Assembly (NCBI RefSeq): GCF_018139145.2
Contig: NC_059478.1
Location: 4,154,001-4,218,000, forward strand
Length of the DNA: 64,000 nucleotides
Origin: Gymnogyps californianus
Taxonomy: Eukaryota; Chordata; Aves; Accipitriformes; Cathartidae
Direction: 5' to 3'
Below are positions 3,613-59,765 of this stretch, one piece after another. The notes below the pieces were generated by a model. That model ran no database searches. It had not been told where the DNA came from and saw only the letters and a program-made list of their open reading frames with translations. How positions within the stretch are numbered: position 1 is the stretch's first letter; each line of letters begins with the position of its first letter. The position numbers were made by a program, and so were the translations under genes.

Positions 3613-6600
3613 TCAGTTGCCATCAGGCCACACAATGCTATCCAGCTTCGCTTTGGCCTTGACGATGAACTCCTCAGAGGCATCAACAAGCGGAAGCCGT
3701 GGAGGTCCCATGGGAATGCCAGAAACAAAAGTCATTACAGCTTTAGTCTGCGCAACACCAAAACCTGGGTGGACAAAAGCAAAACCAGGACATTTACAGA
3801 TCATTTTGCTTAAAGCAGCCTCTATACAGGTGTCCAAAAAAGCAGCAGCATAGAGTTCCTGTGTAATCCAGCACAAACCAGGCTTTAAGCATTTCTTGGA
3901 AGTGAGAACAGTGTAAATTAAGAAGAAATGATTGTGCTTGCAGACAGGAAAGACATTACAGTAAAAATGATGCCTACTTATTACATTTATTTACATATTA
4001 TACTATTATTGTTTCCCTCCTAAAGATACCAAGCAGAGTATATTCTTAGACATGCACTTTACAAACTACTGTTTCAGTTTTACAGATAACCAGGGCTGTA
4101 TGTGTGTTCCTTTCTCCTTGCCAAAATGTATTGCCACGCAGCCCTGACAATCGAAAAGATGGTACGAGTCCTCCATAGGTAAAACAAGCAAAAATCAGGC
4201 CACTTCAAACTTAACCTTCGCTGGTAGGCTGAGCTATCCCAGCCAATTTGTCGTCACAGCAACCCAATGTTCGCAGCCTCATAGCTATCCCCTGATGCAG
4301 ACTCATATAAAGCCAAGCCCTGGGAGTACTTGCATCCTGCTGGCATGTGACAATGACATTGGGTACCAGCTTAAACCACCATGGGAAACTTCAGGAGGCC
4401 TCTCTGTCCATAGCTTAAGTATCCTTATGCACCTCTGGAAGTTCAGTGTTTGCCTCTTTATCTATAAGGCTAAATAATGATGCATTTCCTCCGACTTTTA
4501 ACCCAAGAAATACAACCAAGCACTAAAGCTCAGCTAGATTCATTGGGGCTTGTGTATGTATAGCAAAAACACAGTGAACAGTTCTCTTCATTAAGTGAAA
4601 ACTATGAAATGTCTGATTCAGTCTCCCTACACTACTCTGACTTGGTTGGTTTTAATTGCTTTTTATATTAAAACTTAGTTTTGTTTCTAAAAATCATTCC
4701 ATTTTGAAATGCTTTGGCCTTGTACAGCCTTGAACAGAGTTACTCTTAAATTATAGCAAGGCAGGAGAGACAAGTATCGGAGCTGCTTTCCTACTGGAGC
4801 ACCACCGTTTCAGAAAAACGACTCTGTAGAAACAAAGCTAGAAATGAGCTTTTGGAGACAGAACAACAAAAAAACCAACCCACAGAAAGAGTCAGGATAA
4901 GAAAAAGGGTAAATCACAGAGTCACAGCTTTAAAGCTGTGAGATTTCACAGGAGGAAGGAAGTGCGAGCAGAATCCGTCAGGGATGCTTGGTCAGCTCCC
5001 AGCTGTTACTAACTCGGGAAACAGCAGACGCAACTTTTCTCACTGCGAAATCTTTCAGGAAGGAAGTTCTGAGGGTACAGCAACATGAGAGTTTCTGGAG
5101 CACCAAGTCTGCATTTTTAGATATAACGAGGGAAATGGGCAGTGTAGGACTTACCTAGTTTGATGACAAAGTTGAGAAATTCCCCAGTGAGAAACTAGAA
5201 AAGACAGACAGTAGTTTATTAAATTTTAAGATGTTAAAGCATCTAGAGCTATTATGATATTTGTATCTTATACAATTGTTGCACAGCTTTGAGAAAAGCC
5301 CTTGGCCACCTGGCCAGTATACGGGAAATACTAATTGAATTCCATTGGAATAGGGGAGGGAGGGAGATAAGAAAACCATCACTCCCTGTCAGTCTGTCAC
5401 TCATGTTCAAGCTGTCCCTCACTGCAAGCAGTCTGAGAACACTGATAAGTCTCGTATCGGGCTCTAAAGGTTTACAAATCTGAATATCCACTGCCTAGTG
5501 AAGAGATTTCCCAGAGCAGATCATCTTTCAGATGTCTTTTACACTTTCATCCTGTAGTCACTTCTATTTTAAGGCAAAAGAAGGATGCCTCAAATGTCCC
5601 ATAAAAACATTGGGTATAGATTTGTCCTGGTTTTGGCTGGGATAGAGTTAATTTTCTTCCTAGTAGCTGGTATAGCACTGTGTTTTGGATTTAGTGTGAG
5701 AATACTGTTGATAACACACTGATGTTTTAGTTGTTGCTAAGTAGCGCTTATCCTAAGTTCAGGACTTTTCAGTTTCCCATGCTCTGCCAGCAAGCAGGGG
5801 TGCAAGAAGCTGGGAGGGAGCAGAGCCGGGACAGCTGACCCCAACTAGCCAAAGGGATATTCCATACCATGGAACGTCATGCCCAGTATATAAACTGGGG
5901 GGGGTTGGCTGGGGGTGGGGGATCGCTGCTCAGGCATCGGTCAGCGGGTGGTGAGCACTTGCATTGTGCATCACTTGCCTTTCTTGGGTTTCATTTCTCT
6001 TTTTTTTCTTATATTCCTTTTCATTACAATTATTATTATATTTTATTTCAATTAGTAAACCATTCTTATCTCAACCCACGAGTTTTACTTTTTTTTCCGA
6101 TTCTCCTCCCCATCCCGCCAGGCGGGGTGGGGGGAGGAGTGAGCAAGCAGCTGCGTGGTGCTTAGTTGCCGGCTGGAGTTAAACCACGACAAGCTTCTAT
6201 ACTGATTGCTCAGAACTCCTCACAAATCCTCAAGGTGCCCAAGACCAAGAGGGGTCAAGGCAGAGCTGATTTGGGACAGCTTTCTGCCCTGCATCATGTA
6301 AGGTATCCCCAGAATATTCCTAGTCAAGGGACTTGGCCATTGTGGGCTTGTTCAAGGAAAAAGGCCAGGCCATTGCTCACTCTGCACAGATGAGATTTGA
6401 GAGCTGAAGGATAAGTAAGGCAGATCTTGGTTAAAAGTTAGTAAGGACTCGTCAAAAAGGTGAGGAGAGATGAATAACAAGCAGGGGGTTGGAGGTGAAA
6501 GAAGGTTGCTTTAATAAAGCTACCTCAGGGTACAGATGACAAAACCACATGGCAAACAGCCCCAGTAAAGCTAGAGGAGAAAGCAAGCTGCTCCTAGTGG

Positions 6601-9600
6601 GGACAGTGAGGATACTGTACCTGATACTTCCGTGCTAACGCAAGGTCTGGCTTTGCAAAGGCTTGCAACATCAGATTGGTTTTTCGGCCCAAATAGTTGT
6701 ATGTACTGCCAAAAAAACCAAACCAAAAATAGAATCGGTAAATGCAAAGGAGGAGCTTAGAACCACTGAAACAAAAGAAGTAGCCACAGGCTTTTGCTGT
6801 TGACATTGTAAGAATGCCATTATTATGACAGAGATTCACACAATCTATGTGTGGTTTATACTGTCAAGCATCTGAAGTATGCCAAGCCCTATGGAAGAGT
6901 TTAGAGAGCAGATTTCTCTTCCCAGTTCTTCCCAAATGGAACTGCTTTTCAAAATTAAAAATAAAAATACACAATTAGGGAATACAAAAAGTCAACCACT
7001 TAATTTTCCAGTTGCTTGTTCGTTTAATGGATCATCGACAGAAGAACACAGATATCGCACAGTAATTCATCTAAGCAGCCTGGTATGAGGGGCAGAAGAC
7101 AAATCAGATATTAAACTCAGCAGAGCCCTTTTCCTCACAGACTTCTCATGTGAACTAACAATTTTAACCTCTCTGGGTTTTGGTTCCTTACCCATATAAC
7201 AAAGATAAAAGTGATTCCCTACTTCAGAAAGTTGCCGTGAGGATAAAGAAATACGTTGAAACCTTTAGGTCAGCTTAGAGACTGCAGCAGTAATCACCCA
7301 AACGAACATAATCCAAGATCCCAGGTTACACGACTGTCCCATCGCTAGCACTGGAGCTAGCTCATCTGTCTGCTTGTACAGCCCTACCCTGCAAAATCCT
7401 CCACTGCCGTGACAGAAGATAGTTAGAGAAATACCACGTAGGTAGTGGAAGATACAACAAGACAGTGTGTGTGTCGAGGGGAAGGAGTCCAAGCCATACT
7501 GACCTTCCAACTGCTCCACTTGCCCCTATTGCCAGTGCACTCAACAGTTGCTAGTTTGGGGTGGGAGGAGGAAAAAAAAATTTTTTTTTACTTCACGTAA
7601 CAAAATAAAGAAAAAAAAGGGGTGGTGGGAGGGAGCAGCAAAACTACCTGGCACTGAATGTCCAGGGTTACTTTCTTCCCCCAAGGCTGAAGCAAGAGAA
7701 TGCCACAGAAGAAATAATTTTTAAGAGGAGCCTCTTACCTCATCCACCCCATAAAGAAATGAAAACTGTTCTCTCTCGTTCTTGTTTATACACTGTGCAA
7801 GGTCCAAGAGGTCCGTGTCGCTGAACTTCACGCCCTGGAAGGTGGGGATCCGCTCTTTTATTCCATCCAGCAACTCCTCAACACGAACTGTGCAGAACAG
7901 CAGTCTCATATGAAGAAACATACCCCTTTTCTGGGAGATTTCCCTGTCTTGTCCCCAAGAGGGAGACTTACCATTTTACAAGTTGTTCACTTTTAGCCTA
8001 AGCCTGGTAAACTATATAGCTCTAAACCAACCAGTAAGACAACTTCAGTGTGATTATTTCCCAGAGTTATACAAAAGACATCTTTCCGCCCTCTTTGAAG
8101 CATTCCTTTTACCAGATCAGAAGGGAAAAACCCTGGATAAGTGAAAGTTTAGGAATGAACCGACTACAACATATTTAAGAATAAATATAAATTCATACAT
8201 CCAGAAACACCACGTAACCTGCTGTCTAGAGCAAGTAACCAAAGATCTGCATTCTATTCGTCATTCCTCTGCTAAATAATAAGACTTGAGAAGCACTGTG
8301 GTGTCACACGTAATTTACTAGCAAACGTGACTATGCAGTCAGCGTACACCAAGCAAGATGGCGGTAACCATCTTGCAGAAAAATCAGGATTCAACTATGG
8401 TTATCCAAGGCAATTACCTATCCTGGTCCACACTAATTGCAAAGCCATGGTCAGCATCACCTCCTCCGTCCCAGTTGTTCAGTACTCATAAGCCGTGATT
8501 TTTTGCCAATGAAGAGGAATTCAATTTCTTTTCCAGTCTTGGATTCACCTCCCATTTTCGGAAAGGATCCTTTCCACTACAGCTTGCATGTGACAGGAGC
8601 AGAGGCCACATACTACTGGTAGACTAATCACACTAGCCACTGGGATTACTCAGGTTGCTATGAGCCTACGGGCTCAGGAAGAGCTGACTAAGCAGTACTT
8701 ACTCTTCACACCCGTCAGAGGAGGAATGTGATAGTAATAAAATGGAACCGCAGGGGCTTCAGACGCAACCTTCTGTAAGAAAGCGGTCAGCTCATCTGGA
8801 AGAAAACAAGCAAGTACCCCCATAAGAGAAGGAGACTATATGTACTGAAGACAGTTCAGATTCACAGCAGCCAGGGTCTGTGGAGAGGCCATCTACAGCT
8901 TGCATATCATACGCAGCGAGTCATATAACAACCTTGACACATCATAAAAAATTAAATGTAACAAAACCCAGTGGAAGACCTAAGGGAAGGCAAAGACAAT
9001 ATTTATTTTAAACCAAACCGATTTCAGTAACTCACACTCATTCTCTTACAGATGTAACTCATGCATGTGCTCACACATGGAAGACCTGTGTGCCAAAGTG
9101 GTCTCACCAGGATCACTTGTGTGCAACACAGAGGACAAGGGATCAAGTTCACATTCACCTCCCTGGGTTACTGCTCGATGGTGATGATGAACAGGTTTTT
9201 GGACAACTTTTTTGTACTGTTTTAGGACTCAAAGAATTATTATGGTTGACATTCTTCCCGAGAATCTTGTTCACTGCATCCTTCATAGATCTTAGGCAAT
9301 CTCACTGCCATCCTACTACTATCAGCGAGGTCTTCTGCTGATCTTCGTGCTGTTCCTCTGTGCTTACCAGTTTGATTGCCACTGATTGTGTCCTTGGCTA
9401 TCAATACCAGCCATTCTGGCGATCCACTCCGGTTTCTTCTGGTGCTTTCATATGAACATTTCCATTCATAATTCATTCGGACAACTTTTAACATTTCTAT
9501 TACAAGCCTCCACTTCATGTGGTTCTTTTATATTATGTTCATCATATTAAAAGTGAAACACTCCATTTATCAGTTCTGAGGTAATCTTAGGTGCACAGAA

Positions 9601-12600
9601 CCAAACATGATCACCTCACTAACAAGAAGCACGCCTGTGTATCAGCAGTTTATCAACTTGGTCAGTGTCCAGCAAGGGTCAGCATGGAACCAACTGCTTC
9701 CTAGTGGGGCCCAGATCAAGCCTGAACTCCAGACTATCTGTTCAGAAGGCAGACTAATTAACTACTCTTCCCATAAGCAACTCTTCTTTTTACAAGAGGC
9801 TAACGAAATACATCCCAAAAGACATCCTTCCCACTTCTTACTGGGAGAATTCTGGTATGTCCCATCTTTCTTTTAGGTTTTGCTTTTGCATGGCACCAGA
9901 AGTGACAGGTGTGCTGCAAACATTATCACCAGAATGTTCTCCACAGAAAGAAGATGGCATTAATCCTTTATCTATGGTAAAGGTTTGGAGGGCAATATAA
10001 AAGGCCTCAGCAGGTCTGGCAATCACACCTACTCACCTTTGTTTGTGGGTTTGAAGAAGAAGGGGGCTATTGCAGCAATACCACTAGCACCTATGGCTGC
10101 TGCGTGTCTTGCCTATAAAAGAGAGAACAGAAAGTACCTGAAGGTACATCTGCTTCATATTTACTACACACATAGTGAAAAGGAATCATATCATATACAC
10201 ACCAGCTCTTGGGACTCTGGCAGACTCAGTGCTCCCACATGAATGATCACATGATCCAATCTGCACAAAAACGAATTCAGAAGGTTTGGGGAGGTTTCAG
10301 TGATGGTGAAAAATGCCAGTCTGCCAAAATGAATCGCTTCAGACCAGGGAGCCACAGAACAAGACCTTCACTGAGCTAGATTAAACATAAAAGGGATTTG
10401 AACCTGTGTTGACCTGACGAGCAGACACACAGGGAAAATGCCAACAGTGGCAAGCAGGTGGTGGTGGAAAAAAGAAAACACATTTGTGAATATGAATCAT
10501 GTGTGACTCCTTGCTGTCGTATTTGCAAGGCTGTCAGGAGAGACAAACTTTAGTATTTTATTAAGACATTAACGATTTAAGGGGAAGCTGGGAAAAGGAA
10601 AGGATATCAAAGCATCTTTGCTTTCTAACCCTACTGCTCTGCAGAACTACCAGAAGAGTTCAACCTCACGGCAGCACCTTTGAGTTCTTGTCTGCTCCTG
10701 CCAAGACAATCTCCCAGGTTCCAGTCCATCAGTCCCATTTCTGTGTTTCTCCTTTATATCCACACAGACTCTGAGCCATCACACCAGTTTATTTCTGCTG
10801 ACTATCCTTCTCACCCAAAACACCTCCTCCTCTCCATATCCTCTGACATAGCAACTAAGAAGATGGCAGCGGTGAGTGATACAAGACTATGACAGGTACA
10901 AGAGATGGAGAATGGAGCTGCAATTGGATACACAGCTGCAGATCCAGGTTGAATTCCTTCTTCTGCCACTGACTTCGCACCTTTAGGGAAGCACCAAAAC
11001 ACTTTACACCTCAGCTTCCCCCATACCAAATCATTTAATATTATTAAAAGGTTCGGAAATGCTCACAGGGCATAAATAGGCAGATCGCTCTTTACTTTCA
11101 TTTCTTCGCAATGGGCACAGCCCTTTTTATCCCCAGAGCCCTTTTTTGTCCCCCTGCCCCTCAGTGTACCAAAGAGAAGGACTCTTACAAGCTCTCTAAG
11201 CAACAGAAATGGACACCAGCTAACTGGCAGTACCAAACCCACAGAATTCTATGATAAAGGAGCTGGGGAACAAAGCCCAGCAACAAAATACTCCAAAAAA
11301 AAAAAGCCATCAGCAGATGTGGCTTTGCAATCAGGCATGCCTATATCATAACAGGAGATCTGGAATCCTTTTCCCTCGGCTACTCACTTGTCTTTTCCTT
11401 GGCGCATCCATTCTTCCGCCAACTGCTTCCTCTCCTGGATGTTAAGGGACAATCCTTCTCCTGTTGTGCCATTCACTGTATCAACACAACACAACACACT
11501 TGCTGAGGCCTGGCCTACATGCGTTGGTTTTACTGAAGACAAGAACTGACACTTTTGATGATATTAAACAGAAATAGTTTTCCCCCAACTCATTTTAAGA
11601 TAGCAACGGTCCGCACCAGCATCTGCATGGGGATTGCAGTGTTATCATTACTAAATGCTTGTGTTGGAAACCCGGGTGTTTCAGGATGAGCAGCGGTGGG
11701 AGGGAGGAGGCAGAATCAGCTGCTGAAACTGGGAAGCTGTCCACCAGCGCCTCCTCCCCAGCAGACACTACCTCCTTCTCCCAGCAGTGAGTCAGGCTAT
11801 GACAAGTGCACGAAGGGACGCCCAGCTAGGCAGGCAGAGTGACTGCCTATCCTCCACCCCAAGGAAACAGCCTGACCTGAAATTTGGTGTCTCTGTCATG
11901 AGTGGAACCACGTGTGCTACCTAGGCTAAAGCACCCCTGGAAAACGACGAGATGTCAGTATGTTCAGTCACAAACAACAGATTAAAATGGGATAGCCGAA
12001 GTCACTGCCATGCTCAGCTCTGCATCTTGGCACTCTTTTGACTGGAGTTTTGAACCAAAATCTTATCACTGACTTCAGCTTACTTAACTATGCCAGGCCG
12101 TGAATGAAAGTGGTTTAGCAGATGCTGTATTCGCTGCCCAGCCATCCCTGCTGCCCCGCAGCAGTCCCTGAGACGGAGGCAGAACAGAGAGATGGGAGCA
12201 GTGACCACCTAGGTATCACCCAGTGCACCACAGGTCTCGTGAAGAAGCCCATTTGGCTTTGATGAGCTCACTGAATTCCCTGGACTCCTGAGCTGATGTT
12301 TTTTAATCAGATGATTGTATCTTGCCCAGGCAAAGGGGAGAATCATTCAGTTGAGTTTTCTCTGCCAACACAGCATTATCCATTCATCTATGGGAACATC
12401 ACTGTATGAAGGCAACACTTATTTTATCCCACACAGAAATGGGGTGTAGGCAAAAGCAGATGCCTTACGTATTGCTTACGCTCTCTCCACTGATGAATAT
12501 AAATGTCTAGGATGATCCCACATACACAGTCCCTCCCACTACAGCTCTTATCAGGCAAGGTATCATAGGATTGCCATCCAGGCAAAAGGGGTCTAACACA

Positions 12601-14360
12601 GTTTCTCGCAAAAAAACACTTACCAAAGACGTTCTTCACATTCTGCTCGCTTACCAGATAATCCACATATTTACGAATCACCGAAAGGTTAATTTGTCTG
12701 AAATGAAAGGAACCACAGCAACCATAAGTCTCCACTCACAGATATCTTAAACTTAGAGATTAAGAAAACAGAGAGAGACATGTATTTTTGAAGCCTGGCA
12801 GTTGTACACACACAAATTACCCCAAGGTATGATACCTTCAGCATGTGTTTAACATTTCAGGTAACCGTTCAGTTCTGAACTCTTTCTTCCAGTTTCTCTT
12901 CCTCCTGACAAGTAGTTCACTGTTCCAACCTTTTATCTCAATTGGTAATTACTGCAGGCTCATCACAGCAAAAGACTTTTTTGGGGAGATGAGAGAACAA
13001 GAGGCACTCTAACCTTTTTGACTGTTGAAGGAAACAGGAGTCCTCTTCAGAGCAAAGATATTTGTGCAAGTGCTGGCAAATAGTTAAACTATACTTGTAA
13101 CTGCTGGACACAGACCGTGAAATGGCATCTGCTGGATGTGACTTTGACCTCTCTCTCTCTCATTAAAGGATGAGGAAAGCCACAGACTTCCCTGGCAAAC
13201 AGGGAAAATTGAATTCTAGGTTTATCTTCTCTGCAGGACGAACTTATTTTGTTTATCAGTGTATAATATTTCACTGTTGTTTTCGTTTGTCAAACATACA
13301 GACCAACCCTATAGTCTGGAAGTCAATTCTGGGACCTTGACTGGGTTCACATATCACCCAAAATTTCATAGCTGCTTTCACAGAACATATCTTATAAGGG
13401 CCAGGCATTCCAGGCAGCGGGCCCAGATCACTCTCCAAATACCACGCTGCAATAAATTTGAGTAATAATAAAAAATGAAATCGGAAGTAAGTCTCCTTTA
13501 AAGCAAGAAACGAAGCAGTGACTGCAATGCAAATGAGTTCCCTGACTGAGACAGTACCACGCTTTACAGTACTTTTCAAAAGTAAAGGATCACTTTCAGA
13601 GGACTGTACTGGCAAATCTCCACCGTCTCCCTCAGAAACACATACAGATCTTGACACATCCCCCATCAGAGAAGCTCAGGGTCCTTTGCTGACTCCAAAC
13701 AACTCTGTCTTGCAACATCAAGATGCAATAGGGAGGACATCTGTTTACCGTCACTGCTTTGAGGAAGGCTGAATTTCAACTTTCGAGTTGATGTTATTTT
13801 CAGAACTGGGCAGTCCTTGCAATATTTTCTTCTGGTTTAGACTAGTTCCATGGACACATGTATACACATGAATGCATGCATGAGTTAGCTAGGGTAAAGA
13901 AAAGTCTAAAAGGACATCAGTTTTTGACAATTATTTTCTAGCTCTCAAGAGCTCTTTTTAACTAGGGCTGTGATTTTCCTTAACAAACGTGAAAATACTG
14001 CAATACTCTACACATATAACCTTACTATGATTTAATTTGCACCTACAAAAGTAATGGAAAAAGAGATGTGAGACGGATCCAAACTCTCCAAACCCAGACA
14101 TACAGCACTTGCGGGGCAACAGGAAGATGCAGAGGTGAAGGGAACCCACTCGAGTCCTGGTGGGACCAACCTAACAGTTCCCCCATCCCATCAGAGATCT
14201 CATTTAAAACAAAACAAAACTGATCAGTTCCAAATAAGAAAGCAGGAAAATAGGGGTCTAAGGTAACAGTAATCAGTGCAACTTTGACAACTCACCCATC
14301 AGGAGTCATTGGAGTGATTGTAGCAGCTACAAGACCCTGTAACTTCTTCCCGGGTGTCAT
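3613..14360 (-). CDS. NPL: NPL, N-acetylneuraminate lyase (complete coding region, 11 exons)
   Basis: NPL is the cytosolic class I aldolase that splits sialic acid (N-acetylneuraminate) into N-acetylmannosamine and pyruvate. Coding exons on the minus strand: 14360-14296, 12697-12624, 11475-11388, 10260-10203, 10112-10037, 8795-8703, 7887-7739, 7550-7504, 6705-6621, 5194-5155 and 3764-3613. All boundaries are AG/GT and all phases agree: 927 nt, 308 residues plus stop, close to the 320 of human NPL. Family motifs in order: VAATITPM (residues 11-18), GTTGEG (49-54), FYYYHIP (139-145) with the active-site tyrosine, and [10 protein letters not shown] (168-177), where Lys172 is the expected Schiff-base lysine. 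[12 protein letters not shown] lies near the C-terminus. The N-terminus ([11 protein letters not shown]) is one residue shorter than in mammals. The start codon lies just after an acceptor at 14366-14365, so a non-coding first exon in the CpG island near 15 kb is likely. The exon 8 donor reads GTCAGT, which is weak. The introns hold the solo LTR and MIR-like fragments but no other gene I recognise. Confidence 0.96.
5623..6191 (+). mobile_element. Solo LTR of an avian endogenous retrovirus, in an NPL intron
   Basis: 569-bp element beginning TGTCCTGGTTTTGG and ending ACCACGACA, so it has the TG...CA ends of an LTR. It is flanked by AGATT (5618-5622) and AGCTT (6192-6196), a 5-bp target duplication with one mismatch. 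Inside are a TATATAAA box (from about 5886), a G-rich stretch just after it, and a T-rich 3' part. The sequence is of the LTR family with the TGTCCTGGTTT start that is abundant in bird genomes, probably ERVL-like (inference). There are no internal genes, so this is a remnant of LTR-LTR recombination. It is antisense to NPL. Confidence 0.85.
7150..7270 (+). repeat. MIR-like SINE fragment (3' half)
   Basis: Reads like the central to 3' part of MIR: TTAACCTCTCTGGGTTTTGG, then a degenerate 'cctcatctgtaaaatgggga' segment, then GTGAGGATAAAG. It lies in an NPL intron. Matched by eye only. Confidence 0.55.
10895..11085 (+). repeat. MIR-like SINE fragment
   Basis: Contains degenerate MIR landmarks in order: CAGGTTGAATTCC, TCTGCCACTGACTT, TTTAGGGAAGCAC, CACCTCAGCTTCCCC and a terminal GCTCACAGGGCATAAATA. 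Old and diverged; lies in an NPL intron. Confidence 0.55.
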
Positions 14361-14730
14361 TGAGCTGTTTGGGATAGAGAGAGATAAAAATTATTACCAT
14401 CTTTATTTAAGCGTTGTTCAACTTCTGTTAAAAGCAAAACTGGACAGGCAAAGTTCAGAAGAAGTGGACTTTGCAAGGCTGTTAATTTTGGTTAGAGCAA
14501 ATTGTCTTGTTGTTGAAAGAGTGGCTTATCGTGGCCAGCACCATCCCGGGACGGGACTGGGAGCACCACGCGCAGTTACGTTCCAGAGACATCTTCTATT
14601 TTACCCTTCCTTTTCCACGTCCAGGTTGTGGTCTAGCACATACCTGGTAACGCCTGGCGGTCTGGAAGGGACAAGTTTTGCAGAGAACCGGGCTCAAAAC
14701 CCTTCCCCCGAGAAAGGCAGCCTCACGCTG

Positions 14731-14800
14731 ACAGACACACACACACACAGACACACACACAGACACACTCACTCTCTCACACACACTCACACACACACTC
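14731..14800. repeat. (AC)n microsatellite next to the NPL CpG island
   Basis: Interrupted (AC)n tract with AG and CTC interruptions, followed by a run of C. It borders the GC-rich promoter block. Confidence 0.85.
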
Positions 14801-15160
14801 CCCCCCCCCGCCCCGCAGACCGCACCGACCCGCCAGGCCTGCCGTCAGCACCCGGCCGAGCCGAGGGGCCAGCCCGCCCGGGCGGGCTCCGGCCCCGGGG
14901 AGCCCGGGTTGAGGCCGCCCCGCAGGGCAGCGACGCGGCGCCCCCAGACTCTCCCGCCACTCCCCTCACCTCGCCGGCGGCCGGCCCGGCTCCCCAGCGC
15001 CTCAGGGGCGGCCCTCGGCCCGGCCCGGCCCGGCCCGGCCCGGCGGGAGGCGGTGCTGCCCCGGCTTGTCGGTGACTCCTCCGGGCCGAGCCCGCCGCCC
15101 CGCTTCTGCCCCAGCAGGCTCCACGCACCACGTTTCAATGCTGCGATGTGAAAAAGCGGT
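14800..15160 (-). promoter_or_regulatory. CpG island, likely NPL promoter and non-coding first exon
   Basis: Very GC- and CpG-rich block about 450 bp upstream of the acceptor that precedes the NPL start codon. It contains a GGCCC tandem repeat at 15014-15043. The first NPL exon is probably here; the start site and donor were not resolved. Whether it also drives transcription to the right is unknown. Long open frames in this block on both strands are a GC effect. Confidence 0.6.
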
Positions 15161-16219
15161 GAGCCGGAGGGAGGCGGACTGCCGCCGGGCTGAAGGGCGG
15201 AGGAAGCCGGCATCACCTGACAGCTCTCCACAGAAAGCATTTCTTCTTCACACACACACCCCCCCGGCTGCCCTTGGTGACCCGTTAAAACGGCCGCAAT
15301 CCCCGCAGTCTCCCATAACCTACGCTCCACAAGTACTGTTTAAAAGCTAAGGCTCGTTTGGGTTATTAATCGCTATTTGCAAACTTTTAAAAATAAAAAA
15401 TAAATAAATAAACGTTTTAAAATAAATAACCAACAGGGTGGAGAGAGGAGAGAGCTGGCTGCGTGTCTGAGGAGACACCAGGCTCCACCGCACGCTTCGC
15501 TACCTATCGTAGCCAAGACAGACGGCAGCACTGCAGAGCATCAGGGTGGGAGATTTGGGGGGGGTTGGTTAACAGCTCTATGAATTTCAGTGGGGATTTC
15601 TGCCCAGGCACGAGTCACTGTTGAAAAAAAGGGAATATCTTTTTGTTGATGGCTGAAAATAATGAGGGAAGCTTGGCTGCAAACTAGAAGCCTGTTTGTC
15701 TGAAGCGACTCAGGCTCAGCTCCCCTGAGGTTGTCTACCCACGCGCTCCGGAGCTGCATGAGAGAGAGAAGTTCATGCTACTGCTGTGATTAGCAGCATC
15801 AAAATGCCCTCCTGGAGCTGTCTGCTAGAGAGACACATCCACTGCACGGTGCAAGAGAAAGAAAAACACATTTTCTGCAGTTCAGTGCCATTGAGCGAGA
15901 ACCATTTCGAAAGGCTCGGCGTGGTGAGGAAGCCAACACACACTGCCTTGTCATAAAGGGAACAAGCACCAGAGGGCATGTCCAAAGCTGGCGAAGGCCT
16001 GGGAGCTGCAATAAAGAGCATCTCTGATTAAAAGATTATTTTTTTTCCAAACGAATAAGTCAAATTTCATCATTTCTCTGTTCCCAGACAAAAGCAAAGG
16101 TGCAACTGGAGATGAAACTCCAGTTTCATCTGGAAACTAAAACTACGGCTCAGTAATTTAAGGGTAAGCATCAAAATATTATCATTATCGTAAAACAAAA
16201 TCCCATACACCCAAAAAAT
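15160..16219. other. Intergenic, no gene recognised
   Basis: A/T-richer sequence with a short (AAAT)n/(AAAATAAAT) low-complexity stretch near 15,385-15,428. I see no exon with convincing splice sites. Confidence 0.4.
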
Positions 16220-17689: not shown

Positions 17690-18262
17690 TTCCCGAAATC
17701 CCCTCCTCTCTATGCTCTTCCATCCCTATGGGTAACTTCTCTTTTTCCAGGCTGAACAGTCCCAGCTCTCTCAGCCTCTCCTTGTAATACAGATTCTCCA
17801 ATCCCATGATCATCTTCGGGGCCCTTCACTGGACCCGCTCTAGGAAGTCCGTGTCTTCCCTTTACTGGGGAGCCCAACACTCCAGATACGTCTCACCAGC
17901 GCCGAGCAGAGGGGAAGGATGACCTCCCTCGACCTGCTAGCAACTCTCTGCCTAATGCAGGATACTGCAGGGCCACACTGCTGGCTCACATTCCACTTGC
18001 CCACCAGGACCCCCAGGTCCTCTTCAGCCACGCTGCTTTCCTGCTGGGTGGCCCCCCAGTCTGTACTGGTGCATGGGCTTATTCCTCCTTTGCTGCAGGA
18101 CGTTGCATTTCCCTTTGCTGAAGTTCCCGAGGTTCCTGTCAGTCCATTGCTCCAGCCTGTCAAGGTCCCTCTGCAAACTTGCTGAGGCTGCTCTCTGCTC
18201 CATCATTCAGGTAATTAATGAAGAGGTTAAGCAGTACTGGCCCCAGAAGAACAGTGTATTTC
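17690..18262 (-). mobile_element. CR1 LINE fragment (3' part, 5'-truncated)
   Basis: Read on the minus strand it begins with the familiar CR1 segment CTTAACCTCTTCATTAATTA (18,224-18,205) and runs through the end of ORF2 and the 3' region. That includes CCTGCAGTATCCTGCATTAG and the segment complementary to AGGCTGAACAGTCCCAGCTC. It is 5'-truncated, as most CR1 copies are, and its 5' edge adjoins the tandem array that follows. CR1 is the dominant LINE in birds. Confidence 0.85.
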
Positions 18263-18279
18263 GGGAGGTTCAGAGACAA

Positions 18280-19848
18280 TTCAGTGCTCTGTAGAGCCAT
18301 TTAGAGAAAGTTCAGAAGATTTTCTGAGTATTTTAAGAGAGTTTTAGAGCTCCTTCATGCTGTTGACAGCGTATGAGAGAAGCTTTACAGTAGCTTGAAG
18401 TGGTTTAGAGCTGCTTAGAACAGTGTGTAGGAATTACAGATTGGTCTAGAAGGGTTTTAGAGCCGCTTAGAGCTCTTTAGAGGAATTTTAGAGCTGTGTA
18501 GAGCAGTTTAGAGTTGTACAGTAGAGATTTAGAGGCATTTTAGGTGCATTTAGAGACACATTAGTGCTGCTTATAGCAACATAGAGGAGCTTTAGATCGG
18601 TTTAGAGGTGCTCTGAGGTTTTTAGAAGAGGTTTAGAAGAGGTAAAGGAGTTTACAGTTGTTCAGAGTGCTTTACAGGAGTTTTGGCACACTTTACAGGA
18701 CTTTAGAGCTGCTTAGAACTGTTTATAGGGGTTTTAGAGGAGTTAGATCAATTTAGAGCGGTGTGGAGCTGCTTAGTGCTGTTCAGAGCAGTTTTGGAGG
18801 ACTTCAGAGATGTTTTAGCACTCTTTCTCTAAACAGGAGTTTCAGAACTGCAGAAAGGAGTTCTAGAGCAGTTGCAAGGAGACTGAGAGGGGTTTGAGAT
18901 CTATTTTGAAGCATTTTACTGCTGCTTAAAGCAGCAGTGGAGGAATTTTAGACATTAGTGTTGTTCAGAGGATTTTCAGAGAGGTAGAGTGGAGGTTTTA
19001 GAGGAATTTCTAGCTTCTCACCGTCATTTATAGCTGATTAGAAGAGTTTGAGAGCTGTTCAGCTGGGTTGTAGAGCAGTGTAGTGCATTTTAGAGGTATT
19101 CTGGAGCTGTTTAAAGAAGTCCAGACTGGTTTAGCAGCACCCTAGAGTGTTTTAGAATCAGTTAAATGATTTTAAAAGGTGTAATTTAGGGGGTGTAATA
19201 ATAGCTCTTTGAGAGCTCCTCAGAGGTGTTTTGTAGCTGTCTGCTGGTATTTTAGAGGAGTTTAGAGCACCTCAGAGCATATTCAAGGAGTTCTAGAGAT
19301 CCTTAGAGGAGTTTAAGAGGCCCAAAGGAAAATCAGGGATCTTCAGATTAATATAGAGGAGTTCTAGATAAGATCAGATGAATCTGAAAGCTGCTTAGAG
19401 GAGGTTTAGAAAGATGTTAGTGCAGTTTAGAGGACCCTAGCACTTTTTAAAGGGATATTACAGCTCCTCAGAACGGCTTAGTGTGCTTTTGAGGGGCTTT
19501 GGAGGAATTTGGAGTTATTTTTCAGATCTTTAGAGCTGTTTACAGGTAGTTTAAGGCATTTTAAAGGTGGTAGTAAATTGTTAGAGATGTTTAGAGCCAT
19601 TTAGTGGCAGTTTAGAGCTGATTAGAAGAGTTTTAAGAGTGGTTTGGAGACCACTTAGAGTTGTGTAAATTACATCTGTTTTGAGGCAATTGCCTCACTG
19701 CAGCAATACAGAGGTCCTTACAGCTCTTTAGAGCTGATTAAAGGACTTTTAGAGCAATTTAGAAGAGGTATACAGTGGTTTAGAGCTGCCTAGAAGGGGT
19801 TAAAATCTTACAGTGGTTTAAAGACATTTTGAGAAATTTTAGAGTTGC
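18280..19848. repeat. Degenerate 10-11 bp minisatellite with TTTAGAG core
   Basis: About 1.57 kb in which variants of TTTAGAG (TTTAGAG, TTCAGAG, TGTAGAG, TTTACAG, CTTAGAA) recur every 10-11 bp, joined by 3-5 variable bases, often GCTG, GCAG or GAGT. An example is 18,456-18,515, where the core falls near 18,456, 18,466, 18,476, 18,488, 18,498 and 18,508. That implies roughly 150 units. Units are heavily mutated and no higher-order repeat is obvious. The last clear unit ends in TTTTAGAGTTG just before ordinary sequence at 19,850. There is no sustained open frame. Confidence 0.9.
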
Positions 19849-32666: not shown

Positions 32667-32748
32667 TGTAACCTCAGAGAAAAGTGGAACGGAAATTGTA
32701 ATATCACAGTAATTCATTTGGCAGAATCAAATTTCATCAGTGGCTACA
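32667..32748 (-). ncRNA. SNORD47: SNORD47 (box C/D snoRNA)
   Basis: Stem GTAGCC/GGTTAC. Box C reads CTGATGA, with C instead of a purine in the first place. Box D is CTGA (32677-32674). It contains TTTGATTCTGCC and CCGTTCCAC, features I associate with U47, and lies between SNORD81 and the expected SNORD80 site. Identity comes from position and resemblance. Confidence 0.8.
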
Positions 32749-33339
32749 AATATTCCCAGGAGTTTAACAGAATTCATTTGCTGTGTGGTCTTACCCAATG
32801 AGGTTGCAGACAGCACAGTCCTTTCCTGAGAAAAAGAGAAGTTGTTTCAGAAAAACAGACATGACCATATGCAAGTTTAATTATTTATCTATGAAATTCT
32901 ATTCACCAAACTAATTTTACCTACAAGGAGGCTGCATTTCAGCTGGCAACTGACAAGTTCAACTTACAACACCCAAATAGGATATACAAAGCTTGCAAAT
33001 CCTAACTGAATTGGCAATACAGAATTACTAACATTGGAAGAGTCGGTGAAAAGTACAAAGCTACTACTGGCTTTGTGATACTGTCTCTCCCCAACAGAAA
33101 GTTGTATTCAATGAGTTTTGATATCTAAAATACAAGTCCCATAGAAGTCATCTTGAAAATCTATCCTTAAAAGTAAGAATCAGTCTGTTGTAAGAAACAA
33201 GTTTGTACAGCAATCATCTAGAACTTGATCCTAAATTTGTGGACAGCCAACATAACCAAGATTAGCAAAAATTACTGAGTAGTGACAACCACAGCATATA
33301 GGGTTGGTGTTTTGGTTTTTTTTTCTTTTTAATAGCCAG

Positions 33340-33419
33340 GTACATCAGATATGAGTTGCGATAGGAGTTATGTTTGCTGCTGGGCATTCTGCTGTACTAC
33401 GTTATCAACGCTGTATTGG
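33340..33419 (-). pseudogene. Degenerate SNORD80-like sequence at the expected SNORD80 site
   Basis: On the minus strand it retains ACAGCAGA, CTCCTATCG and a terminal CTGATGTAC, all typical of the U77/U80 family. Box C reads GTTGATA and the terminal stem is weak. The guide TCTTTCGC that the intact copies use for 28S rRNA is disrupted. It is probably a decayed SNORD80, although a diverged working snoRNA is possible. Confidence 0.55.
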
Positions 33420-33937
33420 CTAAGTGGTCTCCACTGATTCAGCTCCTTCACTGTTTCCACTGTGTGAAGACATCCAGCAATAAAAGCCCAGTTTTTAAAG
33501 TCATTGAGGTCACATCTTCTGTTCATACAAAGAGAACTCTACGTTAAGTTTACCATTGACTACAGTTCAGGAATTGTCAGGGTATCTGCTCAGAAAGAGC
33601 CCTTCCTTTTCAAGTCAAATTCAGAACTACATAGAAGTGCATTCTTGCTTCAAGCACATCGTATTTATTCCCACAGTAGCTGAGAGTTGGAGAATCAGAA
33701 TACAATCAAGGGAAGACTAATCAGATATTACAGGACTAATTTTAGGCACCACTATCTAGGCATTTAGCACAAAGACAACATTCCAGTAATTATCAAACCC
33801 CATGTACTCTACACTTACCTCAGACATAAGTTAATCTTGTTTCTCACACAAACTCCCCATGAGCTTCACTCTGTAACAAGTGAAATTTTATTAACACACT
33901 CTCCTTGGCAGTGCTTCAAGAGTTAGTCTGAATGTGG

Positions 33938-34018
33938 GTACTGTTTCAGCGCAAGAGTCCTCCTCAGCCTCTTTCAGAGAGATTCCCATTGCTTAGAATT
34001 AATCATCACAAACAGTAC
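33938..34018 (-). ncRNA. SNORD79: SNORD79 (box C/D snoRNA)
   Basis: Strong terminal stem GTACTGTT/AACAGTAC, box C GTGATGA (34009-34003) and box D CTGA (33949-33946). The guide TGGGAATCTC before D' CTGA pairs over 10 nt with 28S rRNA GAGAUUCCCA. The selected base is the adenosine assigned to U79 (A3809 in human numbering). The next exon acceptor follows 68 nt on. Confidence 0.9.
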
Positions 34019-34561
34019 ACGCTTAGAGAAGCTTAATGTTTTGTTACTTTTGTGTCTCCTTAGAGGAGGACCTGACCTCAGCATTTCAGACCTTACCCCC
34101 AACCATTTTCATTCACATCACGTAAAAGCTCTAATCTAGCCATTGAGACAAATAATTTACCACATTACTTCAACTACTGAATGTCAGTGCTACTCCCTGG
34201 AAAAGCCCACTACTTAATTTAACCAGCAAAAAGTTAAAATAGCAAATAATTGTACTGGCTTTGGTCAGCACAAGCTCTGCACTGCCAGGTTACCACACAT
34301 TCTTATCAACTAGAAACTCAAGTAGTCCATAGCAGTTACATATTTCAACTGGTCCACACCATTTCTTTTCAGTTACAGAAAGCAGTTAGCATTTTCAAGT
34401 AGTAAAAAAAAAAATCTTATGGCAACTGAGAAGCAAGCAGCTTACCAAGTAAGAAGCATCTGTCAAAGTATCCAGCAGTTCCCCCATTCTCAAATCTACG
34501 ATACACACAAGAAAATGAAATGTCAGTCCAATACTGATGTTACTCTAGAGGCTTGTTAAGA

Positions 34562-34650
34562 CTTCCAGAAACTCCTTTGTCCATTACTGTTGCAATCATC
34601 ACCATATCTCATACTTTGTGACCAAAGACAGTGATGAGATTTAGTCCCTA
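34562..34650 (-). pseudogene. Possible degenerate SNORD78
   Basis: On the minus strand GGACAAAGGAGTTTCTGGAAG resembles the guide and box D end of SNORD78, but the box D position reads CTGG rather than CTGA. A GTGATGA (34602-34596) lies upstream. No convincing box C with a matching terminal stem was found at full length. It sits in the right intron between SNORD44 and SNORD79. Borders are approximate. Confidence 0.35.
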
Positions 34651-34955
34651 GCACCTTGGGTAAGTGAACCCTGCAGGCTGCTGGTAACCTGTGATCTATT
34701 GGTAGAGGTCAGAAAATCCTGAAGGAACCTTCTGCTTAATGCTGCAGCTACGCTGCAATTAGAGGCCAGCATCTACTAACTTCCCCATCACCTATCACGC
34801 AGTTCTGACCAGTCACACATATCTACTGGCAACTTACTTTTGCTGGTAGCACTACCAACCGCACCACTTCACAGCTCCACCGCACCAGCCCTGGAACAAA
34901 GCAAAGCATCAGGACAGCGCACCAGCAAGCACATGAGGATGAGATCTAGTCAGGC

Positions 34956-35028
34956 GCCTGCAGTCAGATAGAGCTAATTGCAGACCTCCATGATTGAAGT
35001 CAAGGTAGTCACATCTCATCACACAGGC
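34956..35028 (-). ncRNA. SNORD44: SNORD44 (box C/D snoRNA)
   Basis: Stem GCCTG/CAGGC, box C GTGATGA (35022-35016) and box D CTGA (34967-34964). The guide ATTAGCTCTA before box D is complementary to 18S rRNA UAGAGCUAAU, the U44 target (A166 in human). The next exon acceptor follows 66 nt on. Confidence 0.92.
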
Positions 35029-36350
35029 AGCTCACATTGTCAGTCACTGGACAGCTATCTGCTTTAGGCTAAGGTTGCTATGGGGAAGAGGGCAAATAAA
35101 CAAATATTGCTACCAGAGCAACTTTGTGAGCTCACAGTGAAGAGTTGAGCACAAACCAGCCTGTCAAGGCTGGGCCTTATCCAGCAGTTCTCCCCTTAAG
35201 CATCCTCCTGTTTTGGCCAAGATGCAAACAGCAGCCAGCTGGCCCCTTGCACCTCCTCCCCAGCTTACATCAGTTAAAGAGGCATTCTACTCTAACTTCT
35301 ACGCATTTTTCTAAATGCTAATACTTGCAAAGTTAAAACAAATACTTACCTCGCAATGAGAAACACTTGGGAAGCCTGCAAAGGAAGAGCTGCTATTAGA
35401 CAGGGTCCCGCAGAAAGTTTTAGCACAAGAACAGTCCCAGTGAAATACTGTATCAGTGTTTAGTCAAGTTTTATCCTCATTGGGATCAGAGACCTGATTC
35501 AACATCATCTACAGTAGGCTGCAACACTCCCATCCCCTTCCACAAGAGGTGCCTAAAGCCATCTCCCAGTGCTCTCCCCAACACCCTTGAGATGTTAATT
35601 CCTCAACTCCAGAGACTGCTGGAATTGCAGAAAGGAGCAAACCTCCAAATTGCAGAGTTCAGTGACATGAACTTTGTGTAAACATCTAAGTTGGCCTAAA
35701 CCGGGAAAAGCATTTCAGATGCTAAATTCATAGTACTGTCGCATTCACCATTTAGTCACAACAGGCACATGCTAGAAGTCTTTAACACCGCGAAACAATT
35801 AATGCTTTTATTGTGAAGCAGAGGGGATCTGAAGGCAGTTAGGGTATAGTACCTTTGCTTCATATTTTCCAGGAAAAAAAAAATGGATTTGCAGACCCTC
35901 TTATCTCCAAAAGCAAACTCCCAAGCTCAAATGCAGCACAGCCAAATGTAGCATCCATCTAAAACACATTTTTCAATTACCTTCAATTAGGAAGGTCTTG
36001 TCTTCACCAACATCAGTAACAGGTGAAATAGCTTCTCACACTGGAGGCACAGGTATCCTCTGTCCAGGGCAGCCTGCAAAGCAACAGAACACTTACAGAA
36101 CTTGGAGCTAACACCAGATCAACCATGATTTCGCATTACCAAAATAGCCAATTTATTCTTCTGTATTTGTGCTTAATTTCACAAGCACAGCCTACTCTCT
36201 ATCCTTCTACTCATCCTACTAATTTTTTTATGTTTAGCCGGCTTACTAATCTTCTGAGACAAATTTTCAAAACACATTCATGGAGCAAAACAAAGTAGTG
36301 TTTCCCCCTCAGCTCTCTACATGAATTGTCTAACAGCCTAAGGTACAGGA

Positions 36351-36434
36351 GGCTGCATCAGATAGGAGCGAAAGACAGTAACAGCGTGATCAACACGGGT
36401 CATCTGCTGAACTATGCTATCATCACACACAGCC
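36351..36434 (-). ncRNA. SNORD77/80-type box C/D snoRNA, copy A
   Basis: Stem GGCTG/CAGCC, box C GTGATGA (36426-36420) and box D CTGA (36361-36358). It carries GCATAGTTCA, complementary to 28S UGAACUAUGC, and GTCTTTCGCTCC, which pairs with 28S GGGGCGAAAGAC with one G-U pair. Both guides belong to the U77/U80 family. Its stem differs from that of copy B. Confidence 0.88.
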
Positions 36435-36608
36435 TTTTCAGGTATCAGGGACAGAAACTAGTTTTTACAGATGCAGGCAATACAGTATTTACCTTGCACA
36501 GCTTAAAGCTTCATCTCCCAGTGCCTGCAACAAAAGAAGAAAAAAAATCAGATTCCCTCAGCCTTCATGGCCAAGCCTACACCTCCCAGCAAGAGATCAC
36601 AAGAGCTA

Positions 36609-36687
36609 GATACGTCAGACAGGAGCGAAAGACAAAACTCTGTTCGTCACAGGATATTCTGCTGAACTATGCCATCATCACTGTATC
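36609..36687 (-). ncRNA. SNORD77/80-type box C/D snoRNA, copy B
   Basis: Stem GATAC/GTATC, as I recall for mammalian U77 and U80. Box C is GTGATGA (36681-36675) and box D CTGA (36618-36615). It keeps the same two guides as copy A (GCATAGTTCA and GTCTTTCGCTCC). A GAS5 exon (36524-36493) separates the two copies, so each has its own intron. Confidence 0.9.
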
Positions 36688-37032
36688 TGCTTTGGAATAA
36701 TAGTACCAAACAATTGCCTCTTGTGACAGCTTTGAAAAATTGAAGTTCTCCAAATAAAACACAAAGAAATATTCAAGAGTTTTTGAATACTAGCAAGTAT
36801 CAATTGTCTCTGCATATTAGTGGAAATTAATCCCAAAGTACTTCCATCCCACCCTTCCCACTGCAGCATTTCAACAGCTCCGTGGAAGAAACCCCTACAC
36901 ACACTACACGTTTCTCACCAGGTGATGTTTCTTCTGCAAGTCTTCCAAGCGCACGATGCAAATCCTGGAAGGAAAAAAGCTTATGAACAGTCTATTCAGA
37001 ATTCAAAACATCAAGGGGAATTCTAAGTTGTT

Positions 37033-37116
37033 GTGCCTCAGAGGAAAGGTATGGTGGTAAAAATGCTCATCATTCTCTTGGTCAAGAGTAGCAAATAAGT
37101 GTCATCATTGTGGCAC
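37033..37116 (-). ncRNA. SNORD76: SNORD76 (box C/D snoRNA)
   Basis: Stem GTGCC/GGCAC, box C ATGATGA (37108-37102), an internal C' ATGATGA (37073-37067) and box D CTGA (37041-37038). TTATTTGCTACTCTTGA and ACCACCAT match U76 as I know it. The next exon acceptor follows 69 nt on. Confidence 0.9.
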
Positions 37117-37347
37117 CAGAGGGAAAACTCTGCTCTGGGAATAAAGTCTGCCTACTGTTGTTAGAACAAAAGATACTCTCTAGACAAACACTAAGCACCA
37201 TTTTATGTTAAATTTTCAAGTATTTTTTACCTTGTGAAGTAGCGTCAAGTCTCCACATTCGGTGGCAGATCTGGAAGAGACACAACAGTTTCAGATGCTT
37301 GTAGGACTAGGGGGAGTACGTCTGGCAGTGGCATCTAGCACAGAAAA

Positions 37348-37415
37348 AAGCCTCAGCACAGAGTTTTCAGAAATCACTTCTGTCCACTACTCTTATACTG
37401 AAACCATCATAGGCT
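37348..37415 (-). ncRNA. SNORD75: SNORD75 (box C/D snoRNA)
   Basis: Stem AGCC/GGCT, box C TATGATGG (final base G rather than A) and box D CTGA (37356-37353). AAGAGTAGTGGACAGAAG and GATTTCTGA match U75. It follows SNORD74 and precedes SNORD76, as expected. Confidence 0.88.
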
Positions 37416-38172
37416 CTCTGATTTAGTTAACATCAATCCTGGTAGTTACAGGTTTTCTGAAACATGCATCAGGCACTCTTCTCCAAACAACAAACTATTT
37501 ATTGCTGTGGATGGTGAAACAGCAGTAATGAAGGAAAAAAGGCATATAGTGTACTACTGTAGTCTGGCTGGAGGATGACTAGTGGTTCAGAAACAACAGG
37601 AGCCTCACATTCACTTTCCAGTATACAAAGAAACAGGTGACTTTTCCCAGTAGTGAGGACTGCCTGAAGAGACACCACAGGTGATTACTGGATTACAAAC
37701 ACTGGTCCTTTAATTTCCTGAGACACAAGAGCACCCCAGGATAGTTGCTCTAAGTGTACCCACACATTATTTCTCAATTTAAACTCTGTATTTCAGAAGC
37801 AACACCTACCTGTTTTGAAGCCGTAAGAGGGAAGAGCGTAGTTGATGCATCTTAAACTGAAAAACAAGAAAGTATCCGTTAGTTTTTCTTCTTCTAAGAA
37901 TGAAGATGTTATGTTCAAAACCATACTCTGAGCCTTAGAGTAAAGCTCTCCCCTGGTGCAACCTACACTTCAGCTCTTTGAAGAGACAAGGCCACAAAAA
38001 TTGCTAGCCCACATTTTTAAGCAGGACAGAACCGCTAAACTTCTTAATTTTCTACAGCTTCAATTCTAGTGTAGAAGCACTGGGTCAGTCCTGCAGCCAT
38101 TACCTTCATTTGACTGCTCAGAAAGGACCACGTGGTGTTTCAGCCATGCCAGATATGCCACTACACGCTATT

Positions 38173-38256
38173 CCATGCCCAGCTCAGATATGTTGGTATT
38201 CATCACCCTCTCAGATGTCCCTACCAACATAGTTTTCATCATGTGCAGGCACATGG
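38173..38256 (-). ncRNA. SNORD74: SNORD74 (box C/D snoRNA)
   Basis: Long imperfect stem CCATGTGCCTGC/GCTGGGCATGG, box C ATGATGA (38242-38236), C' GTGATGA and box D CTGA (38187-38184). The guide GTTGGTAGGGACA before the D' box CTGA is complementary to 28S UGUCCCUACC, the U74 target (C3820 in human). It is the first snoRNA of GAS5. Confidence 0.92.
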
Positions 38257-59470: not shown

Positions 59471-59479
59471 GCCAAGGGG

Positions 59480-59765
59480 AGGGTGCAGAGAAGACGGAGC
59501 CAAACTCTTCTCAGAGGCGCACGGTGGAAGGAGGAGCAGCGGTAGGCAGGAGTTTATACAAGGGAGATTCAGGTTAGATATTACAAGACAGTTTTTCACC
59601 GTGAGTATAGCCAAACAGTATTGGAACAGGTTGTCCAGAGAGACACTGAAATCTCCATCCTGGGAAATACGCCAAACTTGACCGGGCAAGACCCTGAGCG
59701 ACCTGCTGGAAGTTAGCCCTGCTTTGAGGGAGGAGGCAGGGCTGGGACCTAAGGGCCTCCCTCCC
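59480..59765 (+). mobile_element. CR1 LINE fragment (3' part)
   Basis: Contains the CR1 3' landmarks in order: CAGGTTAGATATTA, TTTTTCACCGTGAGTA, TATTGGAACAGGTTGTCCAG and AGAGACACTGAAATCTCCAT. Diverged and truncated, plus orientation. Confidence 0.8.

Follow-up and report, generated by a model that had tools for sequence, protein, structure and literature searches.

Introduction

A few described tandem or phased repeats bear on the present locus. The PATC sequences of C. elegans are T-rich clusters phased at about 10 bp over kilobases, and they consist of phased A/T clusters rather than a tandem unit. The closest avian repeats are from the chicken, for which one report describes sate-21 of the W chromosome, with a 21-bp unit (TTTTCnnnnnGAAAAnnnnnn) in dyad symmetry, higher-order repeats and a share of 19.7% of that chromosome, and CNM, a 41-bp centromere-associated repeat that often forms higher-order repeats of 26-98 copies (PMC9974502). 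Here, we describe a degenerate tandem array built on the core TTTAGAG in the genome of Gymnogyps californianus (1.24 Gb in 542 contigs). It lies in the window C8:4,154,001-4,218,000, by which we mean the whole stretch of 64,000 nucleotides that was analysed. The array is probably an old and decayed minisatellite, with a second member of its family on another contig. Literature searches on avian 10-bp minisatellites, bird satellitomes, helical tandem repeats and the core itself returned no description of a TTTAGAG-type repeat in the titles and abstract openings on which they were judged.

Period and unit of the array

The tandem array is real, and the period of 10-11 bp that an earlier note on this DNA had claimed is borne out by the autocorrelation of 18,280-19,848. 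Lags 10 (0.429, z 13) and 21 (0.421, z 12) stand out, and further peaks follow at lags 31 (z 9), 41 (z 7), 52 (z 7) and 62 (z 8), all against 200 dinucleotide-preserving shuffles; deep troughs separate them, and the implied period is about 10.4. When cyclic profiles of 7-13 columns were fitted, the one with 10 columns, consensus TTTAGAGCAG and insertions did best at 0.388 bits per base, whereas 16 of 16 runs on mononucleotide shuffles gave values below 0. Decoding with the cyclic profile divides window 18,280-19,847 on the plus strand into 151 head-to-tail units, in agreement with the 150 or so that had been estimated, a count that is approximate since the decoding was forced across the whole stretch. 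Each unit consists of a TTTAGAG core and a spacer of 3-4 bp, most commonly CTG, GAG, CTC or CAG, and the spacing between units averages 10.38 bp (91 of 10 bp and 45 of 11 bp). TTTAGAG occurs 25 times in the array, against 0.13 per kb elsewhere in the window, and minus-strand matches to the unit stay at background level, so that the units all point one way.

The degeneracy of the array is considerable. Core positions match TTTAGAG at 79.7% overall; 37 of the 151 cores are perfect, 86 match at six or more of the seven positions and nine at three or fewer. Tandem Repeats Finder, the check proposed in the earlier note, did report a repeat at a score of 50, at 18,455-18,513, which amounts to 59 of 1,568 bp and misses the remainder of the array. 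Conservation is unequal within the unit, with 0.7-1.2 bits in each of the seven core columns and 0.15-0.25 in the three spacer columns. The damage is even from one end of the array to the other (P 0.60), and perfect cores are slightly more numerous than independence predicts (37 against 30.1, P 0.10).

Almost no order is seen among the units. At unit lags 1-24, neither the identity of spacers nor the sharing of core variants departs from permutations by more than about 2.5 standard deviations, with no sign of local homogenisation, and the top spacer lag among 1-100 reaches z 2.9. Mutual information between units at lags 1-6 has a mean z near 0, and z exceeds 3 in three of 600 column pairs. The longest stretch repeated exactly has 18 bp, a length that unit-shuffled arrays yield as well (P 0.47). 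One weak dependence does appear, between a spacer and the base that opens the following unit (z up to 3.0): after a CTG spacer six of 20 units start with CTT, and after GAG 14 of 17 start with TTT. Within units the spacer letters are linked (p 2e-5 and 7e-8), which fits inherited spacer types. A higher-order repeat was considered and set aside. Longer cyclic profiles fit better in raw terms (0.395 bits per base for 21 columns and 0.440 for 31), a gain smaller than the cost of the added parameters by our own arithmetic, and none of the unit lags 1-100 stands out.

A second array on another contig

A genome search with the DNA of the array, which skips simple repeats and hence yields lower bounds, led to a sole other place, C15:17,864,290-17,864,355 (79% identity over 66 bases). 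This match is part of a second array at about 17,863,919-17,865,420 on the minus strand, with 147 units of mean length 10.26 bp and the consensus TTTAGAGCAG; a search back with the C15 array returned C15 itself and the window only. The two arrays have closely similar column profiles, their match beating 4,000 of 4,000 column permutations. Their spacer columns differ by a Jensen-Shannon divergence of 0.002-0.013, their spacer types correlate at 0.74, and the top C15 spacers are CAG, GAG, CTG and CTC. The C15 array is the more decayed (of its 147 cores, 12 are perfect, as counted among the commonest ones listed) and is enriched for C in the first and third columns relative to the window array. 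The similarity among its neighbouring units has z 1.9 for lag 1, and z from -1.4 to 1.0 for lags 2-12. About 50 A/T-rich bases interrupt it (L146:5244-5292). The flanks of the two arrays share short matches at chance level only, and about 11 kb from the C15 array there is an exon resembling septin, with a score slightly over the Pfam cut-off.

Helical phasing and predicted bending

The earlier note had also proposed that the repeat runs close to the helical period, that all its cores lie on one face of the helix and that the DNA may therefore be curved. The mean unit indeed approximates one turn, and the spectra of WW (A/T), AA/TT, TT, SS (G/C) and AG steps all peak at 10.2-10.3 bp. Across ten 147-bp windows, the phases of WW and SS steps differ by 123-171 degrees. 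Predicted mean bending exceeds that of 100 shuffles in a wedge model (z 4.0) and in a roll model (z 10), and none of 40 tiles taken elsewhere in the window reaches it in either model; the 95th percentile in the wedge model, 125.9 degrees, falls just under the highest tile at 126.3. The sizes given by both models are rough. What the models predict is thus a gentle curvature with WW and SS roughly out of phase, a nucleosome-friendly pattern. The common face for all cores survives in part: the cores are partially in phase and do not stay so along the whole array (vector strength at best 0.47, at 10.2 bp, and 0.42 at 10.4). Bending of the C15 array is weaker (z 1.4 in the wedge and 5.5 in the roll model).

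An active correction of the helical phase was entertained, because adjacent 11-bp units are fewer than permutation predicts (7 against 13.1, P 0.009). Once 400 shuffled arrays had been re-decoded, the ratio, the correlation and the two- and three-unit variance gave P 0.04-0.07, longer runs about 0.2 and the raw count of adjacent 11-bp units 0.44, and the idea was dropped as marginal.

Genome census

Strict and relaxed unit patterns were scanned genome-wide with reversed-pattern controls, a survey from which strongly decayed arrays could escape. The four scans gave 1 match against 4 in the control, 16 against 19, 26 against 15 and 47 against 11. Three arrays hold 27 of the 47 relaxed matches, namely nine in the window array, seven on C15 and 11 at C28:4,321,620-4,322,558; the other 20 are scattered. 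Single matches on C18, C11, C8, C5, C14, C15 and C7 (seven places), four more on C4, C5, C19 and C7, and eight further places that were scored proved to be isolated motifs and not arrays. In 20 sampled 10-kb stretches of the genome, periodicity revealed no further array and the two-array profile found nothing at E 1; this profile also matched L168, L173 and L184 weakly.

The repeat on C28, a contig of 7.8 Mb, came from this genome-wide scan. It is GC-rich and young-looking and fills all 1,000 bases read (L191, C28:4321601-4322600). Its unit is exactly 10 bp, organised in a 20-bp dimer (identity 0.84 at lag 20 and 0.70 at lag 10), as in CTCAGGGGTA and CTCAGGGCTG; one column is half G and half C, and the others are near fixed. 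Against GC-matched random 10-mers, its likeness to the family reaches P 0.001 with the C15 profile, 0.004 with the joint profile and 0.027 with that of the window alone. As it was picked out by a scan of the whole genome, it counts only as a possible young relative of the window array. With a unit of exactly 10.0 bp, it would drift off one face of the helix. A separate short run on C3 (L168:1487-1545) has about six near-perfect units like CTTTTTAGAG with the TTTAGAG core, and is apparently a newborn array.

Short patterns also matched 25 and at least 117 loci in viral and prokaryote contigs. Contamination by bird DNA was rejected as their source; no comparable array was found on either strand among the 142 matched loci listed, which have at most 21 unit matches per kb against 60 in the window. 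Some bacterial contigs, among them those of L066, L079 and L095, contain short regular TTTAGAG runs at 10-base spacing, with up to 21 unit matches per 300 bases in L095, and these are perhaps coding repeats of ten codons.

Genomic setting

Judging by protein and Rfam matches, the window array is intergenic, 3-4 kb upstream of NPL, between this gene and a set of small nucleolar RNAs (snoRNAs) of the C/D class whose host gene we take to be GAS5 (Table 1). The gene order across window 2019-48423 is DHX9, NPL, GAS5-like snoRNAs and ZBTB37. In human, DARS2 and CENPL adjoin GAS5; pieces of DARS2, CENPL, RGS16 and SERPINC1 found no convincing match in the window. The idea of an element like the immunoglobulin switch regions, considered because GAGCTG occurs ten times in the array, was dropped in view of its neighbours, NPL, the GAS5-like snoRNAs and ZBTB37.

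Table 1. Positions of features in the window, counted from its first letter
Feature	Position	Strand	Basis
Degenerate tandem array	18280..19847	+	151 units, TTTAGAG + 3-4 bp spacer, mean 10.38 bp
Possible weak first unit of the array	18269..18279	+	unit score 5.4 bits
Old broken CR1 long interspersed nuclear element (LINE) remnant, part of reverse-transcriptase frame	17733..18268	-	tblastn with CR1 protein, E 6e-27
CpG-island-like stretch	14501..15500	.	GC up to 0.74, CpG observed/expected 0.67-0.90
NPL gene	3616..14354	-	tblastn with human NPL protein; 9 exon-like matches, weakest 7,500-7,550 (E 0.05)
DHX9	start 2,019	-	match with human protein
Six C/D snoRNAs, GAS5-like set	32670..38252	-	Rfam gathering matches
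ZBTB37	43.3 kb	+	match with human protein

The array adjoins the CR1 remnant, whose right-hand edge at 18,268 was judged by eye. At the DNA level the remnant matches a CR1 piece in two blocks at 80-81% identity. A second CR1 fragment, with the 3' part of the reverse-transcriptase frame, is present at window 59475-59669 on the plus strand. Some 3 kb separate the array from the CpG-island-like stretch, which flanks NPL on its 5' side and lies on the side of the array away from the direction of the core strand. The C15 array likewise neighbours GC- and CpG-rich DNA, on both sides, the richer side again being opposite to the direction of the core strand; with two arrays only, this shared neighbourhood was given no weight.

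A structured RNA gene is also not apparent here. Folding of the array as RNA gives z -4.5 against 20 dinucleotide shuffles, but when unit-shuffled arrays serve as controls (40 per strand, for the first 60 units) the values shrink to -1.5 and -1.0; Rfam has no match inside the array.

Discussion

Overall, we consider it probable that the window array is an old minisatellite in decay, no longer homogenised and belonging to a small dispersed family of 10-bp repeats. A 10-bp unit near YTYAGAG followed by SWG would have been amplified in tandem; homogenisation would then have stopped, and the array would have decayed through substitutions and one-base length changes, the latter mixing 10 and 11 bp units to a mean of 10.4. 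The second array, of nearly the same size and column profile, suggests a small dispersed family. A unit that is about a helical turn long, one half rich in T and the other in G, leads to the gentle curvature predicted, and we take curvature and phasing as by-products that would call for no selected function, since any 10-11 bp unit gives phasing.

Several observations sit uneasily with such a history. Across columns the information range is 1.04 bits, whereas none of 90 simulations in which a single unit decayed evenly went above 0.61, so that either the ancestral array was already mixed in its spacers or the core is constrained. Mixed ancestral spacers, moreover, should have left traces of order, of which there is hardly any. 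Core substitutions differ from column to column, with a spread in transition fraction of 0.19 compared with at most 0.15 in 120 simulations under a uniform spectrum, and in both arrays the second T is the one least often changed to C (p 0.001 and 5e-7). Diversity of ancestral spacers followed by scrambling accounts loosely for the kept core and the lost order; selection unit by unit, if it acted, would account for both more tightly. Selection on the core is possible.

A rival reading is that the array is a selected structural element, a protein-bound core or an element that bends DNA or positions nucleosomes, maintained unit by unit with the spacers free. The contrast of core and spacer beyond even decay, the near lack of memory between neighbours as though units were kept independently, the same column profile in two unlinked arrays that share no order, the mean bending and opposed WW and SS steps, and the raw scarcity of adjacent 11-bp units would all be expected of it. 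That scarcity fades on re-decoding, however, the bending of the C15 array is slight in the wedge model though not in the roll model, the young-looking C28 array shows that variation limited to some columns needs no great age, and minisatellites of 10-11 bp are phased automatically; on balance we regard such an element as quite unlikely. Its fullest version, in which two unlinked 1.5-kb arrays of about 150 one-way, independently kept YTYAGAG cores are under selection as one-sided arrays for binding or bending, and so make up an element of bird chromatin that spans about eight nucleosomes within a few kb of CpG-rich DNA, seems to us more doubtful still. We also see it as unlikely, if with some real chance, that the C8 and C15 arrays have separate origins and owe their likeness to convergence and to the search for this very motif. 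Their units differ in order (best diagonal P 0.48; unit-level alignment 64.0 against 57.5 +/- 6.0 in 60 shuffles), and the short run on C3 is a separate occurrence of similar units. Yet their spacer preferences and columns agree closely, and none of 150 unit-shuffled pairs (maximum 54.5) comes up to their best local match of 57.2 bits, although the same match had brought the pair together. Finally, the array might be part of a transposable element or have been carried by one, such as the adjoining CR1: it begins within about 20 bp of the end of the remnant, and a weak CR1 protein alignment reaches 18,336, inside the array. But the CR1 DNA match ends at 18,246, the flanks of the C15 array bear no convincing similarity to the window, and the 10 kb tested there did not match CR1 at E 0.01, which makes a mobile origin very improbable.

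What is new here is a second array in the same genome with the same core and spacer preferences and unrelated flanks. Gene-rich bird DNA thus contains kilobase arrays too degenerate for a standard tandem-repeat search, and members of one family can be recognised on different chromosomes. The better-preserved core makes the array worth a comparative test. Should the core turn out to be constrained, it would offer a natural test of a chromatin role for helically phased tandem DNA; if not, the arrays on C28, C15 and C8 may form a young-to-old series of minisatellite decay.

Relation to described repeats

With head-to-tail units in the range of about 10-100 bp, the window array belongs with the minisatellites. 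It lacks the long homogeneous arrays or high copy number of classical satellite DNA, extending over 1.6 kb in a set that counts, as lower bounds, two degenerate arrays and one possible relative. Nor is it a transposable element by its make-up, no element being seen inside it beyond the weak CR1 protein alignment and no flanks being shared, with CR1 the sole element checked and two arrays compared. The core is one base from the telomere repeat TTTAGGG, a likeness raised in the earlier note that carries little: telomere repeats of the plant and vertebrate types have 6-7 bp units (TTTAGGG or TTAGGG), whereas here the unit is 10-11 bp with a spacer and TTAGGG occurs once. From the PATCs the array differs in that a 7-base core recurs. 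In descriptive terms it resembles CNM, being tandem with units divergent from each other, whereas its own lag of 41-42 is merely the fourth multiple of 10.4, with no peak specific to 41. The dyad symmetry of the 21-bp sate-21 unit, with its TTTTC and GAAAA blocks, is not seen in it, minus-strand matches to the unit being at background; instead, with no higher-order repeat found, a one-way core recurs every 10-11 bp over 1.6 kb. What it has in common with sate-21, whose unit spans about two helical turns, is a tandem design of short fixed blocks with free spacers (PMC9974502).
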